Shown here: positions 39,068-44,132 of the stretch, one piece after another
How positions within the stretch are numbered: the stretch's first letter is position 1
Layout of the letters: the number at the start of each line of letters is the position of its first letter
Notes under the pieces: model-generated
What the model was told of the DNA's origin: nothing
The model's database searches: none
What the model saw: the letters and a program-made list of their open reading frames with translations, nothing else
Source of the DNA: Rhizobium albus
Lineage (GTDB): Bacteria; Pseudomonadota; Alphaproteobacteria; Rhizobiales; Rhizobiaceae
Assembly (NCBI GenBank): GCA_030160035.1
Contig: BSNO01000003.1
Span: forward strand, 806,001 to 870,000
DNA length: 64,000 nucleotides
Direction: 5' to 3'
Program-made: the position numbers and the translations under genes

Positions 39068-40339
39068 TCAAGCCGCTGGCCGCTCCTGGATCACGTCGTC
39101 GGGGGTGGCGTCGACGCGCGGATCCAGTTCCACCGTCTGTGGGGTCTGCCCCTTGCCGATCGGGATCGCGCGGAAATCGGACCGCGCCTCCTCGGCCGGC
39201 TTGGCGCGCTTAGTGGTGCGATAGAAGGCGTAGGCCGAATAAAGCCCGAACGCCGTGGCGATTGTCGCAAAGAGCGCCCACGGTCCCAGCGCATCCATGG
39301 CTGCACCCGTGATAAGCGGGCCGATCATCGTGCCGAAGCCATAGATGATCAAAAGCCCGCTCGAAACCTCCACGAAAGCGTTCGGCTCGGCATGGTCGTT
39401 CGCATGAGCGACATTCAGCGAGTAGATCGGGAAGAGCACCGAGCCCAGGAGGAACATCGTCAGGAAGAACGCCCAGCGGCTGTCGACGCCGACCAGAACG
39501 GCGGCAAGCGACAGCACCAGGCCGACCAGCCCTGCGAAGATCATGACATAGCGGCGGTCGGTGCGGTCAGAGAACCGGCCGAGCGGGATCTGGAACACCG
39601 CTCCGCCGATCATGGCGGCGGCGAGCATTGTCGCGCCTTCCGCGGTGGAGAGCCCGCTCTGCTGCGAATAGACGGGCCCGAGATTGCTCCAGGCGCTCGC
39701 GATCGCTCCGGCCAGCACGGCGCCGACGACGGAGGCTGGCGAGTTGCGGAAGAGCTTGCGGATGTCGAGCGTCACCTGGCTCAGCGGCTGCGGCGACTGC
39801 GCGCTCGATATCCCGGTCGGGATCACCGCCAGGCTGTAGAGCAGCGCGCCGACGATGAAGAGCGTGGGTCCGGCCGCATCGCCAAGAGGAACGGCGAACT
39901 GGCCCATCATGAGGCCAAGCATGGAAATGGTCATGTAGACCGAAAACACGCTGCCGCGCGTTTCGTTGGTGACACGCTCGTTGAGCCAGCTTTCGATGAC
40001 CATGTAGCCACCGGCGATCGAAAATCCTGCCACCGCACGAATGAGGATCCAGGCCAGAGGATGGACGATCAGCGCATGCATGAGCACCGATACCGACATC
40101 AGCGTCGCGAGCACGGCGAAGACGCGCACATGCCCGACGCGCAGCACAAGCCGTGGGGTCAGCACGCACCCGGTCGTGAAGCCGATCGCATAGCTCGTGG
40201 CCATCAGTGAAACCGACAGCGTCGACCAGCCCTCGGCGACGGCGCGAAGCGGCAGCAGATATCCGGCAAGACCGCCTGCCATCAGCATCAGGAACGCTGA
40301 AAAAAGCAGACTGCCGATTGGCAAAAGATTGGTGACCAT
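39068..40339 (-). CDS. MFS transporter
   Basis: A 423-residue major facilitator with about 12 TM segments. The RVGHVRVFAVLA loop and the internal GRFSDRTDRRYVMIFAGL loop are the MFS loop 2-3 and 8-9 motifs. The overall pattern (AGGLAGYLLPLRAVAEGWSTLSVSLMATSYAIGFTTGC) resembles the YcaD group. Substrate unknown. ATG 40339 gives the hydrophobic start VTNLLPIGSLLFSAFLM; the upstream frame to 40450 is arginine-rich and unlikely. Convergent with the GAF kinase, 18 bases apart. Confidence 0.86.
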   Translation of the reverse strand: MVTNLLPIGSLLFSAFLMLMAGGLAGYLLPLRAVAEGWSTLSVSLMATSYAIGFTTGCVLTPRLVLRVGHVRVFAVLATLMSVSVLMHALIVHPLAWILIRAVAGFSIAGGYMVIESWLNERVTNETRGSVFSVYMTISMLGLMMGQFAVPLGDAAGPTLFIVGALLYSLAVIPTGISSAQSPQPLSQVTLDIRKLFRNSPASVVGAVLAGAIASAWSNLGPVYSQQSGLSTAEGATMLAAAMIGGAVFQIPLGRFSDRTDRRYVMIFAGLVGLVLSLAAVLVGVDSRWAFFLTMFLLGSVLFPIYSLNVAHANDHAEPNAFVEVSSGLLIIYGFGTMIGPLITGAAMDALGPWALFATIATAFGLYSAYAFYRTTKRAKPAEEARSDFRAIPIGKGQTPQTVELDPRVDATPDDVIQERPAA

Positions 40340-40509
40340 GGGCAAACGCCGCCGATTTTGTTGTTGTCGTTTTGGGCAAGGATGTGAGGACGGGTCGCGA
40401 AGCAGTCTGACCGCGACGCCCGCCCTGAACCTCGAATTGCACGAAATCATGGCAGACGACGGCTCAATGACGACACCTCAGCCGTCATCCGGCGCCAAAC
40501 TTCGGAAAA

Positions 40510-41409
40510 TTACGCGTCGAGCCGGGCTTTGAGTGCCAAAAGGTCGCGCCAGGCGACTTTCTTGTGGGCCGGACTTGCGAGCAGAGCCTGTGGGTCGAGC
40601 ATCGGCAGTGCCGGCCAGGTGCGATCGCCAAGCCGATAATCCGTCCAGGTGCCACACTGCGCGGTGATGTTGCCGGTCATGTCCATCAGCCCCTTGGTCA
40701 CGACATTGCCGAGGACAACCAGGATTTCCGGATCGACGAGCTCGATGTGGCGCTCGGCAAAGGGCCGGCAAAGCGCCACCTCATGCGGCGTCGGCGTTCG
40801 ATTGCCGGGCGGCCGCCAGAAAATCAGATTGGTGAGATAGGTTGTCTCACGGTTAAGCCCGATTGCGCCCAGCATCCGGTCGAGCATCTGGCCCTCGCGC
40901 CCGACGAAGGGGAGGCCTTGCAGATCTTCCTCGCGGCCGGGCGCGCCGCCGACGATCATCACCCGCGCCTGCGGATTGCCATCGGCAAAGACTGTGGTTT
41001 TGGCGCTGAATTTAAGGCTGCAGCCGGCATAGTCGCTCACGGCCGCGCGCAGTTCGGCGAGCGTCGTGGCCTGCCGTGCCTTCTGCCGCGCATCGGCGAG
41101 CGCGACCTCGTCGGGAATGATCCCGATGGGCATGCCGGAGGACTGCTGCGAGGATTGGACGACGCGGCCTTCGCCCGGACCCTCGCGCGGCGTGGCCGGC
41201 AGAGGCCGCGGATCCCGCTCGCCTGGCCGAACCGACACATCGGCACGCCCGGCGATCGGACCGGACCGCTCGGATCGCAGGGCAGCACTCTCTGCGAAAC
41301 GATCGATAGCGGCATCTTCCAGCATGCAGTCGACACCGGCATCGGCGTAGAAGGCGAGCAGGGCAGCCAGATCGCGATCTGAGAGCTGGGCGAGATCGTT
41401 TGAATGCAT
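40510..41409 (-). CDS. Uracil-DNA glycosylase superfamily protein, family-4-like but divergent
   Basis: A 299-residue protein. The C-terminal 200 residues fit the family 4 uracil-DNA glycosylase fold (GREEDLQGLPFVGREGQMLDRML, then WRPPGNRTPTPHEVALCRPF). Key positions differ: motif A reads GGAPG rather than GEAPG, the usual HPA of the last motif reads LDPQALL, and two of four Fe-S cysteines (in CxxC and KCRPP) are Tyr and Trp. The N-terminal 90 residues are a proline/arginine-rich linker after a short helical domain. Starts ATG 41409 or TTG 41418 are both possible. Probably DNA repair; activity uncertain. Confidence 0.82.
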   Translation of the reverse strand: MHSNDLAQLSDRDLAALLAFYADAGVDCMLEDAAIDRFAESAALRSERSGPIAGRADVSVRPGERDPRPLPATPREGPGEGRVVQSSQQSSGMPIGIIPDEVALADARQKARQATTLAELRAAVSDYAGCSLKFSAKTTVFADGNPQARVMIVGGAPGREEDLQGLPFVGREGQMLDRMLGAIGLNRETTYLTNLIFWRPPGNRTPTPHEVALCRPFAERHIELVDPEILVVLGNVVTKGLMDMTGNITAQCGTWTDYRLGDRTWPALPMLDPQALLASPAHKKVAWRDLLALKARLDA

Positions 41410-41576
41410 GCCCCTCAATTATCGTCCTTTCGCGGCGCTGGCAAACGGAGAGGGATTTCCCGGCCGACTCGGGAACGGGACGGGTCGACAATGTGTTGAC
41501 GTTTTGCCATGGAGAGTAAGCTTTCAGCGGCGGTGCGTGCCGGCATCTCTGCTCCAGACGAATGAGGAAAGACCGG

Positions 41577-43247
41577 ATGAACGACACGACCGAGGCTGCA
41601 ATCGAACGCGAAAGCATGGAATTCGACGTCGTGATCGTCGGCGCTGGCCCCGCTGGTCTGGCAGCCGCGATCCGGCTGAAGCAGCGCGATCCTGAAATCA
41701 ACGTCGTCGTGCTCGAAAAGGGCGGCGAGGTCGGTGCCCACATCCTGTCAGGTGCCGTCGTCGATCCATCCGGCATCGACCAGCTCCTGCCCGATTGGCG
41801 CAGCGAGGCCGATCATCCCTTCAAGACCCCCGTCACCGAAGATCAGTTCCTCATTCTCGGCCCGGCAGGCGGCATGCGCCTTCCGAATTTCCTGATGCCG
41901 CCGCTGATGAACAATCACGGTAACTACATCGTGTCGCTCGGCAATGTCTGCCGCTGGCTTGCCGGCAAGGCGGAAGAGCTGGGCGTCGAGATCTACCCGG
42001 GCTTTGCAGCTGCCGACCTGATCTATGACGATGCCGGCGCCGTCATCGGCGTGGTGACGGGCGACATGGGCGTGGAGCGTGATGGCACGCGCGGTCCGAG
42101 CTTCCAGCCCGGCATGGAACTGCTTGGCAAATACGTGCTCGTCGGCGAAGGCGTGCGCGGCTCGCTCGCCAAGAAGCTGATCGCCAAATATGCGCTTGCC
42201 AAGGACAGCGAGCCGCAGAAATACGGCATTGGTCTGAAGGAGCTGTGGGAGGTGAAGCCTGAGAACCACCGCCCAGGCCTCGTGCAACATTCCTTCGGCT
42301 GGCCGCTCGATTACAAGACCGGCGGCGGCTCGTTCCTCTACCATCTGGAAGACAATCTCGTCGCCGTCGGCTTCGTCGTCCACCTGAACTACAAGAACCC
42401 GCATCTGTCGCCCTTCGACGAATTCCAGCGGTTCAAGACGCATCCGAAGATCGCCGACGTGTTCGAAGGTGCCAAGCGCGTATCTTACGGCGCTCGGGCG
42501 ATCTCCGAAGGCGGCTTCCAGTCGGTACCGAAGCTCGTCTTCCCGGGCGGGGCGCTGATCGGCTGCTCGGCCGGCTTCGTCAACGTGCCGCGCATCAAGG
42601 GTTCGCACAACGCGGTGCTGTCTGGCATGCTGGCTGCCGAACATGTGGCGGATGCGATCAAGGCGGGACGCTCGCATGATGCGGTCGAGGGATACGATCA
42701 GGCCTGGCGGACATCGCCGGTCGGCGAGGACCTGAGCCGGGTACGCAACGTCAAGCCGTTCTGGTCGCGCTTCGGCATGGCCGGCATTGCGCTCGGCGGC
42801 ATCGACATGTGGCTGACGACGCTGTTTCGCGGCTGGTCGCCTTTTGGAACCCAGAAGCACGGCGTGGCAGACCATGAAGCGCTCGAGCCGGCCTCCAAGC
42901 ACAAGAAGATCGATTATCCGAAGCCAGACGGCGTCCTCACCTTCGATCGGCTCTCATCGGTCTACCTCTCCAACACCAATCACGAGGAGGATCAGCCGGT
43001 CCATCTCCAGGTGAAGGACATGGAGCTGCAGAAGAAGTCCGAATGGGGCGTCTTCGCCGGCCCATCGGCGCGCTACTGCCCGGCCGCTGTTTATGAGTGG
43101 CACACGGAAAGCGGCGGCGAGCCGACCTATGTGATCAACGCGCAGAACTGCGTGCACTGCAAGACCTGCGACATCAAGGATCCCAACCAGAACATCAACT
43201 GGGTCCCGCCGCAGGGTGGGGAAGGGCCAGTGTATCAGAACATGTGA
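41577..43247 (+). CDS. Electron transfer flavoprotein-ubiquinone oxidoreductase
   Basis: A 556-residue ETF-QO, which passes electrons from acyl-CoA and other dehydrogenases through ETF to ubiquinone. The FAD-binding motif DVVIVGAGPAGLAAAIRL lies near residue 16, KGSHNAVLSGMLAAEH near 340, and the C-terminal ferredoxin-like 4Fe-4S domain has Cys residues in ARYCPAAVYEW and NCVHCKTCDIKDPNQNINW. ATG 41577 is preferred (GAGGAAAG upstream); ATG 41562 is also in frame. Full length. Confidence 0.95.
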   Translation: MNDTTEAAIERESMEFDVVIVGAGPAGLAAAIRLKQRDPEINVVVLEKGGEVGAHILSGAVVDPSGIDQLLPDWRSEADHPFKTPVTEDQFLILGPAGGMRLPNFLMPPLMNNHGNYIVSLGNVCRWLAGKAEELGVEIYPGFAAADLIYDDAGAVIGVVTGDMGVERDGTRGPSFQPGMELLGKYVLVGEGVRGSLAKKLIAKYALAKDSEPQKYGIGLKELWEVKPENHRPGLVQHSFGWPLDYKTGGGSFLYHLEDNLVAVGFVVHLNYKNPHLSPFDEFQRFKTHPKIADVFEGAKRVSYGARAISEGGFQSVPKLVFPGGALIGCSAGFVNVPRIKGSHNAVLSGMLAAEHVADAIKAGRSHDAVEGYDQAWRTSPVGEDLSRVRNVKPFWSRFGMAGIALGGIDMWLTTLFRGWSPFGTQKHGVADHEALEPASKHKKIDYPKPDGVLTFDRLSSVYLSNTNHEEDQPVHLQVKDMELQKKSEWGVFAGPSARYCPAAVYEWHTESGGEPTYVINAQNCVHCKTCDIKDPNQNINWVPPQGGEGPVYQNM

Positions 43248-43259
43248 GGCACCGGGCGG

Positions 43260-44132
43260 ATGCTGGTCCGCCTGTCGGCGCTTCTCGCTGCAATGGCGAT
43301 CATCGTCGGCTGCACGTCGTTGCCATCTAACGACCAGCTGGACGGCACCCGCCTACGCGTCGCCAGCCTCAATGCCCTTTATATCCGCCCGTCGGGTCCG
43401 CGTTTTGAAGCGTGGCTCGATCGGCGAGAGGCAATGGTGTCCGCCATCGCCGAGATCGACGCGGACATCTTCGCACTGCAGGAAGTCGAGACATTCGACG
43501 GAAGGCCGCTGAATGAGGGCAATCTTCAGCTCGATTTCCTGATGGAGCGCTTGCCGTCCTATGGGTTCGCGGCAATCCGACCGCCTGAATCCGTGCCGTC
43601 GACCCAGCCGATCCTTTACCGCAAAGACCGGTTCAGGCTGCTCGACGAGGGGTTCTATTTCTATCCCGGCCAGGGCGATCCCGTTTTTCCCCGCCGCGCC
43701 GATGGGCGACAGAACCGCTATGCAAGCTGGGCGCTCCTTCAGCCGCTGGAGGGTGGTCCACCGATCCACGTCCATAACTTCCACTTCGACCATCAAAGCG
43801 GCACCCGGCGACAGGAAGCCGCTTCCCGGATCGCCACAGATATAGCCCCGGCGATCGCCCGCGGCGAGCCGGTGCTCGTCATCGGGGACCTCAACGCGCT
43901 GCGCCATTCGCCCACAGGCGCAATCCTGCGCCGGGCGGGCCTGGCGTTCTCACAGATTACCGGCCCGACGTTCCACTTCGGAACCGGCATCGGCGCTTTT
44001 CCGGCGATCGATCATCTTCTTTATTCCGAGCGCTTCGAACCCGTTGGCCGCGGTGTCGTGTTCCGGCGCAATTATGATGGCCAATTGCCCTCGGACCATC
44101 ATCCCGTCGTCCAGGACTTCATCTTGCACTGA
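43260..44132 (+). CDS. Endonuclease/exonuclease/phosphatase-family lipoprotein
   Basis: A 290-residue protein with a lipoprotein signal (hydrophobic core and lipobox IVGC near residue 18). The EEP fold follows: RVASLNALYIRP, DIFALQEVETFDG (metal-binding Glu), HVHNFHFDHQSG, VLVIGDLNAL (catalytic Asp and Asn), AIDHLLYS and SDHHPVVQDF (catalytic His). It may be a secreted or membrane-tethered DNase or phosphodiesterase; the substrate is unknown. It starts 12 bases after the ETF-QO gene, which suggests co-transcription without obvious functional link. Confidence 0.85.
   Translation: MLVRLSALLAAMAIIVGCTSLPSNDQLDGTRLRVASLNALYIRPSGPRFEAWLDRREAMVSAIAEIDADIFALQEVETFDGRPLNEGNLQLDFLMERLPSYGFAAIRPPESVPSTQPILYRKDRFRLLDEGFYFYPGQGDPVFPRRADGRQNRYASWALLQPLEGGPPIHVHNFHFDHQSGTRRQEAASRIATDIAPAIARGEPVLVIGDLNALRHSPTGAILRRAGLAFSQITGPTFHFGTGIGAFPAIDHLLYSERFEPVGRGVVFRRNYDGQLPSDHHPVVQDFILH

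Follow-up and report, generated by a model that had tools for sequence, protein, structure and literature searches.

The gene at positions 40510..41409 (minus strand) of the window, by which we mean the whole 64,000-nucleotide stretch of DNA that was analysed, encodes a 299 aa protein of the uracil-DNA glycosylase (UDG) superfamily, the orthologue of the alphaproteobacterial family-4 UDG, whose catalytic residues have been lost. The simplest account of this protein, and one that we regard as reasonably probable, is a conserved pseudo-glycosylase that has been retained for some second function other than catalysis; the chief rival is a glycosylase that acts on a new substrate. What has been altered is the orthologue itself and not an additional copy, the constraint on it is measurable, and orthologues that are intact, partly eroded or fully eroded can be compared within a single bacterial family. 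A UDG role besides uracil excision is therefore testable by gene removal and orthologue swaps.

The reading frame (41409..40510, minus strand) is intact; its 299 residues are counted from an ATG, and an alternative TTG start is possible at 41418. The original prediction of a family-4-like UDG with lost catalytic residues was borne out by the matches to the Pfam UDG family (1.5e-31) and to the NCBIfam model TIGR00758 UDG_fam4 (166.7 bits, above the cut-off of 125.3), with the motifs as they had been read. The best solved relative found by phmmer is the UDGa of Thermus thermophilus (9.4e-34). An AlphaFold2 model built with 38 orthologues has a pLDDT of about 96 across the catalytic domain (residue 101 onward), and its fold is closest to family 4 (Z 28.1 to 4zbx and 27.5 to 1ui1, against 26.9 to DNA-bound UdgX), the superposition covering residues 116-299. 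Residues 1-48 are predicted with moderate confidence to form two helices, followed by a disordered linker. They include the motif LLxFYxxAGVD...DR (aa 15-40; 41290..41367, minus strand), which is kept here and in most orthologues, including the eroded ones.

The orthologue is present in nearly all bacteria of the order, and in the window's genus the altered protein is the one ordinary family-4 UDG orthologue, with identical motifs and an open frame in all three genomes (G000, G297 and G298). The gene for ETF-ubiquinone oxidoreductase (ETF-QO; 41562..43247, plus strand) is its divergent neighbour and marks the usual locus; an MFS transporter gene (39068..40450, minus strand) lies downstream on the same strand and serves as context. 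Among the best 80 of 483 candidates, that is, the named loci, 73 have ETF-QO divergently upstream within 3 kb, and in many loci the two genes are a kilobase or so apart. We therefore treat the window gene as the usual orthologue, with seven exceptions to the arrangement noted: four loci with less than 3 kb upstream, and L005, L006 (both Hoeflea) and L070, where the full stretch was present. A 15 kb region of G311 (L148) likewise gave no match to ETF-QO. No model of a 2023 PADLOC library matched, and the eight neighbours scanned include no defence gene. On the far side of ETF-QO, an Exo_endo_phos-family gene (window 43260-44132) has 75% amino acid identity to its counterpart in G298, against 92-99% for the other genes compared.

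Several samples underlie the counts given below. Thirty loci were taken directly from the 288 genomes of the order with a match; the 40 sequences from the class and the first 20 from outside it were drawn from the best-scoring matches, and the later 60 from weaker ones. In the family, 120 of the 147 genomes with a match were read, plus G297. UdgX loci (L001, L142-L144, L246-L248), duplicates, the region loci L145-L148, and L003 and L004 were dropped before counting.

Both catalytic motifs are altered as the original prediction had claimed. Motif A (aa 154-158; 40936..40950, minus strand) reads GGAPG in our alignments in place of the canonical GE[A/G]PG, and its Glu is present in 244 of the 290 other alphaproteobacterial sequences and in 28 of the 40 outside sequences. 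Motif B (aa 272-278; 40576..40596, minus strand) reads DPQALLA in place of HPAYLLR, so that the leaving-group His, which is found in 281 of 290 alphaproteobacterial and in all 40 outside sequences, and the DNA-contact Arg are lost. The changes in the window's genus comprise Glu155 to Gly, His272 to Asp, Arg278 to Ala and Arg252 to Cys, and further Arg250 to Ala, Tyr275 to Ala, Ala274 to Gln and Ser/Ala172 to Glu. In the loop GNITAQCG (aa 246-253; 40651..40674, minus strand) the usual Gly247, Arg250 and Arg252 are replaced by Asn, Ala and Cys. The block PFVGREGQ (aa 167-174; 40888..40911, minus strand), which had been described as intact, is not: the stacking residue Phe168 is kept, and Glu172 is new, replacing the Ser or Ala of all 173 best-matching alphaproteobacterial sequences. 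The uracil-pocket residues Glu161, Phe168, Asn194 and Asn203 (Glu47, Phe54, Asn80 and Asn89 in T. thermophilus numbering) are kept. Overall, the protein departs from 10 of 62 strongly conserved positions and keeps 52, the maximum number of departures among the 173 best-matching relatives being eight. For the UDGa of T. thermophilus, the published cost of such losses is three to four orders of magnitude in rate for H155S and three in k2/Km for E41Q (PMC5387724), and H178A of UdgX is reported to be inactive yet folded (PMC10776899).

The replacements extend to the residues that would hold DNA. Ten DNA-backbone contacts of UdgX, taken from a list in PMC10359453, correspond by alignment to positions 171, 172, 235, 247-249, 272, 274, 275 and 278 (that source names residue 153 as Ala, where our count gives Arg). 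Six of these ten positions carry residues that are rare in the 173 best matches, compared with 19 of 179 other domain positions (p=4e-4), and within the strongly conserved positions the rare residues fall at five of six mapped contacts and at five of 56 others (p=2e-4). No other sequence of the 173 has more than five rare residues at mapped contacts, and L128 has five. At the DNA-face positions, which were chosen after the changes had been seen, the window protein has a charge of -1, compared with a mean of 0.5 in the 44 other family members without the motif-A Glu and 3.1 (minimum 1) in the 74 with it; the net charge of the whole domain is not unusual by itself, values as low as this occurring in 6 of 133 and in 11 of 40 relatives. 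L128 and L354 (from G330 and G779) have odd residues at several DNA-contact positions (GKPFTGPAG, HPEYLLK) and intact Glu and His, possibly an early stage of a similar change.

Glu155 and His272 are universal in the 173 best-matching alphaproteobacterial relatives, and it was on these matches that a view of their loss as unique to the window's genus had rested. We rejected this view when weaker matches and the family survey gave many Glu-less and some His-less relatives; dropping it barely moved the odds of the pseudo-glycosylase reading. Among 118 other family members, Glu is lost in 44 and His in eight, six members lacking both and 38 of the 44 Glu-less ones retaining His. With the loss of Glu go Gln274, the loss of Arg278 and the loss of DNA-face charge. 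Cys252 is peculiar to the window's genus, all 44 other Glu-less relatives having Arg252, and at residue 172 Glu is not among the six commonest residues of the Glu-less relatives. Of the positions that are at least 95% conserved in the Glu-bearing members, some remain at least 90% unchanged in the Glu-less set (of which the three rows of the window's genus are part), among them Gly25, Cys130, Trp198, Arg199, Cys214, Arg252, Trp255, Trp287 and Asp289, and the N-terminal motif is largely kept. Listed below 60% are Glu155, Ala156, Gly158, Arg159, Glu161, Leu175 and Leu277, with Asn194 on the border (0.60). Many of the kept positions will be structural, and to place a second function in them is guesswork.

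In the gene tree, computed with the motif columns removed, the window's genus adjoins the genus of G311 and G765, whose motifs are intact (support 87), and lies outside the large eroded clade; its group also holds L117 and L119. The distinct branch that had been suggested is thereby not a deep, separate one, as the gene has such an intact neighbour and sits at the usual ETF-QO locus. The stem branch of the window's genus is fairly long (rank 32 of 350), and the loss of Glu and His fell on this stem. The tree requires nine or more changes of the Glu state and at least five in the presence of Ung; it was built quickly and contains several long rows, so both numbers are rough.

The eroded relatives take more than one form. 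A large group of the family (e.g. L210, L213, L225, L272-L282), mostly with Ung, has a motif A of the GPMPxxDDD type and a motif B HPQ[DE]; it is eroded otherwise than the window's genus, yet under purifying selection. On another branch, the Ung-bearing G758 (L305) has GGAPT and DPAML, with Gly and Asp at the very sites where the window's genus has them. Outside the order, the alphaproteobacterial sequence L241 (G674) has GEAPN as motif A, a Thr at position 194 and EPQRLLR as motif B, in which Glu replaces the His, by its sequence a case of erosion outside the family too. Among weakly scoring family-4 sequences of other Pseudomonadota, motif-A Glu is replaced by Asp in 11 of the 20 read (L250-L269), among them sequences of the range L250-L266, and the four cysteines and His are intact.

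Glu loss is associated with the presence of a family-1 Ung, being found in 36 of 40 genomes with Ung above the cut-off and in 11 of 81 without (Fisher 1e-16), an association that is not separable from kinship and that appears to come mainly from one clade. A family-4 match is present in all 40 Ung-bearing genomes, although 36 of them lack Glu. It is tempting to suppose that Ung freed the orthologue from uracil repair, and kinship may explain the pattern instead; for Ung acquisition as the driver of erosion, the two independent pairs on well-supported branches (five on all branches) are too few for a test. Ung and Glu occur together in G311, G765, G698 and G786, and neither is present in the window's genus and eight other genomes. 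The window's genus thus departs from the association: Ung gave no match in any of its three genomes, and its tree neighbour has Ung and intact motifs. In the Ung search, eight genomes had sub-threshold matches alone, and the four of these that were read were counted as lacking Ung. The window's genome has four UDG genes, which is within the range of its relatives, the other UDG-fold proteins of G000 being a UdgX fusion (P0004), a family-5-type protein (P0003) and a 3ikb-like protein (P0002). Uracil-rich DNA was considered and set aside, since dUTPase is present in all three genomes of the genus.

The eroded gene is under strong purifying selection, in agreement with the original judgement that it is not decaying. 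Compared with the congener G298, dN/dS is 0.033 at dS 0.59 for the gene and 0.018 at dS 0.49 for the catalytic domain (likelihood ratio 124.9 against omega=1), and the neighbouring ETF-QO and MFS genes have values of 0.024 and 0.012. These values come from a purpose-written script, not from PAML. In other same-genus pairs, taken over the last 190 aligned codons, dN/dS ranges from 0.042 to 0.092 in nine Glu-less pairs and from 0.022 to 0.056 in eight Glu-bearing pairs; the former range leaves out the saturated pair L302/L314 and counts as Glu-less the pair L223/L311, which has Asp for Glu (0.079). By these pairs, selection to keep the eroded copies is almost as strict as for the intact ones.

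That the eroded gene is still preserved by selection therefore suggests a second function, which is deduced solely from this retention. The stem of the window's genus saw the loss of the motif-A Glu, of the leaving-group His and of several contacts to the DNA backbone, and with them, presumably, of uracil excision at a useful rate and the usual holding of DNA. Strong purifying selection has meanwhile preserved the fold, the N-terminal motif and the residues for base recognition (Glu161, Phe168, Asn194, Asn203). Erosion of this kind has occurred several times over in the family, and there too the gene was kept. The retained role would be a second, non-catalytic one that the orthologue had besides repair, most likely to bind either a ligand, such as a base or a nucleotide, or a partner protein by way of the parts conserved in eroded copies. 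More tentatively, such a function may have outlived the glycosylase activity several times in the family, with the window's genus as an especially clear example, since it has neither catalytic residue left and still has the uracil pocket. With the same degree of doubt, such a protein could be a scaffold or a sensor of uracil or nucleotides. The second function is perhaps seated in the N-terminal motif together with the remodelled former cluster site (127, 130, 198, 214), which is still conserved in eroded copies.

Some observations sit awkwardly with a pseudo-glycosylase. The uracil-recognition residues are intact, which would not be expected if the protein had no base to bind; the motif-2 His is dispensable in UDG families 2 and 6, which function in its absence (PMC5387724); neither E41 to Gly nor H155 to Asp is among the mutants that we found described; and the association with Ung fails for the window's genus. 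Most of the other eroded copies, 38 of 44 with His, may be active on something. The chief rival is a working glycosylase with a base other than uracil as its substrate, in which Asp272 and Glu172 would give a new chemistry and Gly155 would open the pocket; we rate it as unlikely for the window's genus, and it may apply to the large eroded clade with His. The strong purifying selection, the existence of His-less families and the same Gly and Asp pair in G758 agree with it, as does the repurposing of the UDG fold in the anti-phage glycosylases Brig1 and Brig3, which are reported to excise alpha-glucosyl-hmC and 5hmC, respectively (PMC11078745, PMC13160076). Against it, the uracil-specificity residues of the window protein are unchanged, whereas Brig1 has Glu for the usual Asn (PMC11078745), the DNA-contact residues went along with the catalytic ones and the DNA face lost charge. 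Brig1 and Brig3, moreover, are reported from defence islands, and the window gene lies beside ETF-QO with no PADLOC match and no defence gene among the eight neighbours scanned.

A slow uracil-DNA glycosylase, in which another residue has taken over and which serves uracil repair in a genus without an Ung match, would explain the intact Asn194, Phe168, Glu161 and Asn203. We consider it more doubtful still, since E41Q and H155S each cost T. thermophilus UDGa about 1000-fold or more (PMC5387724), an Asp next to the departing uracilate would be expected to do more harm than Ser, and the UdgX-type, family-5-type and fourth UDG-fold proteins could do the work. Decay, with function lost and the sequence drifting, might be read from the 10 departures at 62 conserved positions, above the maximum of eight in any of the 173 relatives, and from the fairly long stem branch. 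Set against the dN/dS values, the open frame in three genomes and the 52 conserved positions kept, it is very improbable; it is refuted for the time since the split of the three species, and an earlier relaxed phase is possible. A misalignment or sequencing artefact is suggested by the phmmer alignment to T. thermophilus UDGa alone, where motif B is shifted and Asp272 is unpaired with His155. We give it next to no weight, as Asp272 is directly paired with His in the alignments to T. maritima UDG and UdgX, the motifs are identical in three genomes and the superposition spans residues 116-299. Nor were canonical residues recovered by better alignment, Asp272 standing at the His site in all multiple alignments.

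Although the TIGR00758 cut-off is exceeded, we leave the protein outside the family-4 UDGs, since neither catalytic motif nor the full cluster is found in it; it is a derivative of the alphaproteobacterial two-cysteine orthologue. Such orthologues from Hoeflea, Mesorhizobium, Bradyrhizobium and others have 42-54% identity to it and share the N-terminal motif, usually the ETF-QO neighbour, and Phe/Tyr and Trp for two cysteines; the best-matching ones differ in keeping the motif-A Glu and motif-B His. The other eroded orthologues (e.g. L210, L213, L225, L305) resemble it in the loss of Glu, often in Gln274, usually in the loss of Arg278, and in the lost DNA-face charge and purifying selection. 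They differ in that most keep His (38/44), many have Glu161 replaced by Asp, most have Ung, and they lie on other tree branches. The UDGa proteins of T. thermophilus (1ui0/1ui1) and Sulfolobus tokodaii (4zbx) have the same fold (Z 27-28) and base-pocket residues, but the window protein lacks two of their four Fe-S cysteines and their motif-A Glu and motif-B His. UdgX (of M. smegmatis, and also P0004), itself a family-4 derivative with altered chemistry, shares the fold (Z about 26-27); its KRRIH R-loop (a gap here) and GEQPG are missing from the window protein, and DNA contacts kept in UdgX are lost. The family-5 (UDGb) motifs, of the GLAPA type for A and HPSPLN for B, are not found in it, unlike P0003, which is of the family-5 type.

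A described parallel is from Halobacteria, where family-4 homologues judged inactive are said to be common and their function is left open (PMC5295032). The halobacterial proteins are reported there as extra copies beside an active one, whereas the window's is the only ordinary family-4 copy. No eroded sole family-4 orthologue was met in the open-licence papers searched before the family-wide erosion was seen. The Fe-S-free glycosylase of Bradyrhizobium mentioned in the original prediction as possibly related is presumably BdiUng (5gn2), which shares the UDG fold with our model as a remote match (Foldseek rank 39, 19% identity, query TM 0.37).

The iron-sulphur cysteine positions form a class-wide layer of their own. 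As originally read from YxxC (YAGC) and FWRPP, two of the four cysteines required for a 4Fe-4S cluster are replaced, by Tyr at the Cys1 site (aa 127; 41029..41031) and Trp at the Cys3 site (aa 198; 40816..40818), and the second and fourth, Cys130 (41020..41022) and Cys214 (40768..40770), are kept (all on the minus strand). Cys is never found at the first position in the other 290 distinct family-4 sequences from Alphaproteobacteria, where the residue is Phe in 275, Tyr in 7, Leu in 4, Trp in 2, Met in 1 and His in 1; the third position is always Trp, and Cys130 and Cys214 are each kept in 279. All four cysteines are present in 40 of 40 family-4 sequences from other Pseudomonadota. The Bradyrhizobium orthologues of the window gene lack the same two. 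On this distribution, the missing ligands are an old, class-wide trait, not one peculiar to the window gene. The catalytic and DNA-contact changes are younger and arose more than once in the family, so the changes do not form one coordinated set, contrary to what had been proposed. The cysteine layer need not abolish catalysis, because archaeal family-4 Cys-to-Ser mutants are reported to have lost only about 40% of activity (PMC5295032). In the open-licence papers searched we met no statement that alphaproteobacterial family-4 UDGs lack two cluster ligands, and this clean class-wide loss constitutes a natural experiment on the purpose of the cluster in family 4. A four-cysteine family-4 UDG with GEAPG and HPAYLLR is also encoded on a contig of a viral collection (IMGVR_UViG_3300010373_001364; L209:2983-3546), followed, as judged by eye, by an apparent sigma-factor gene; it is a relative of no special bearing here.
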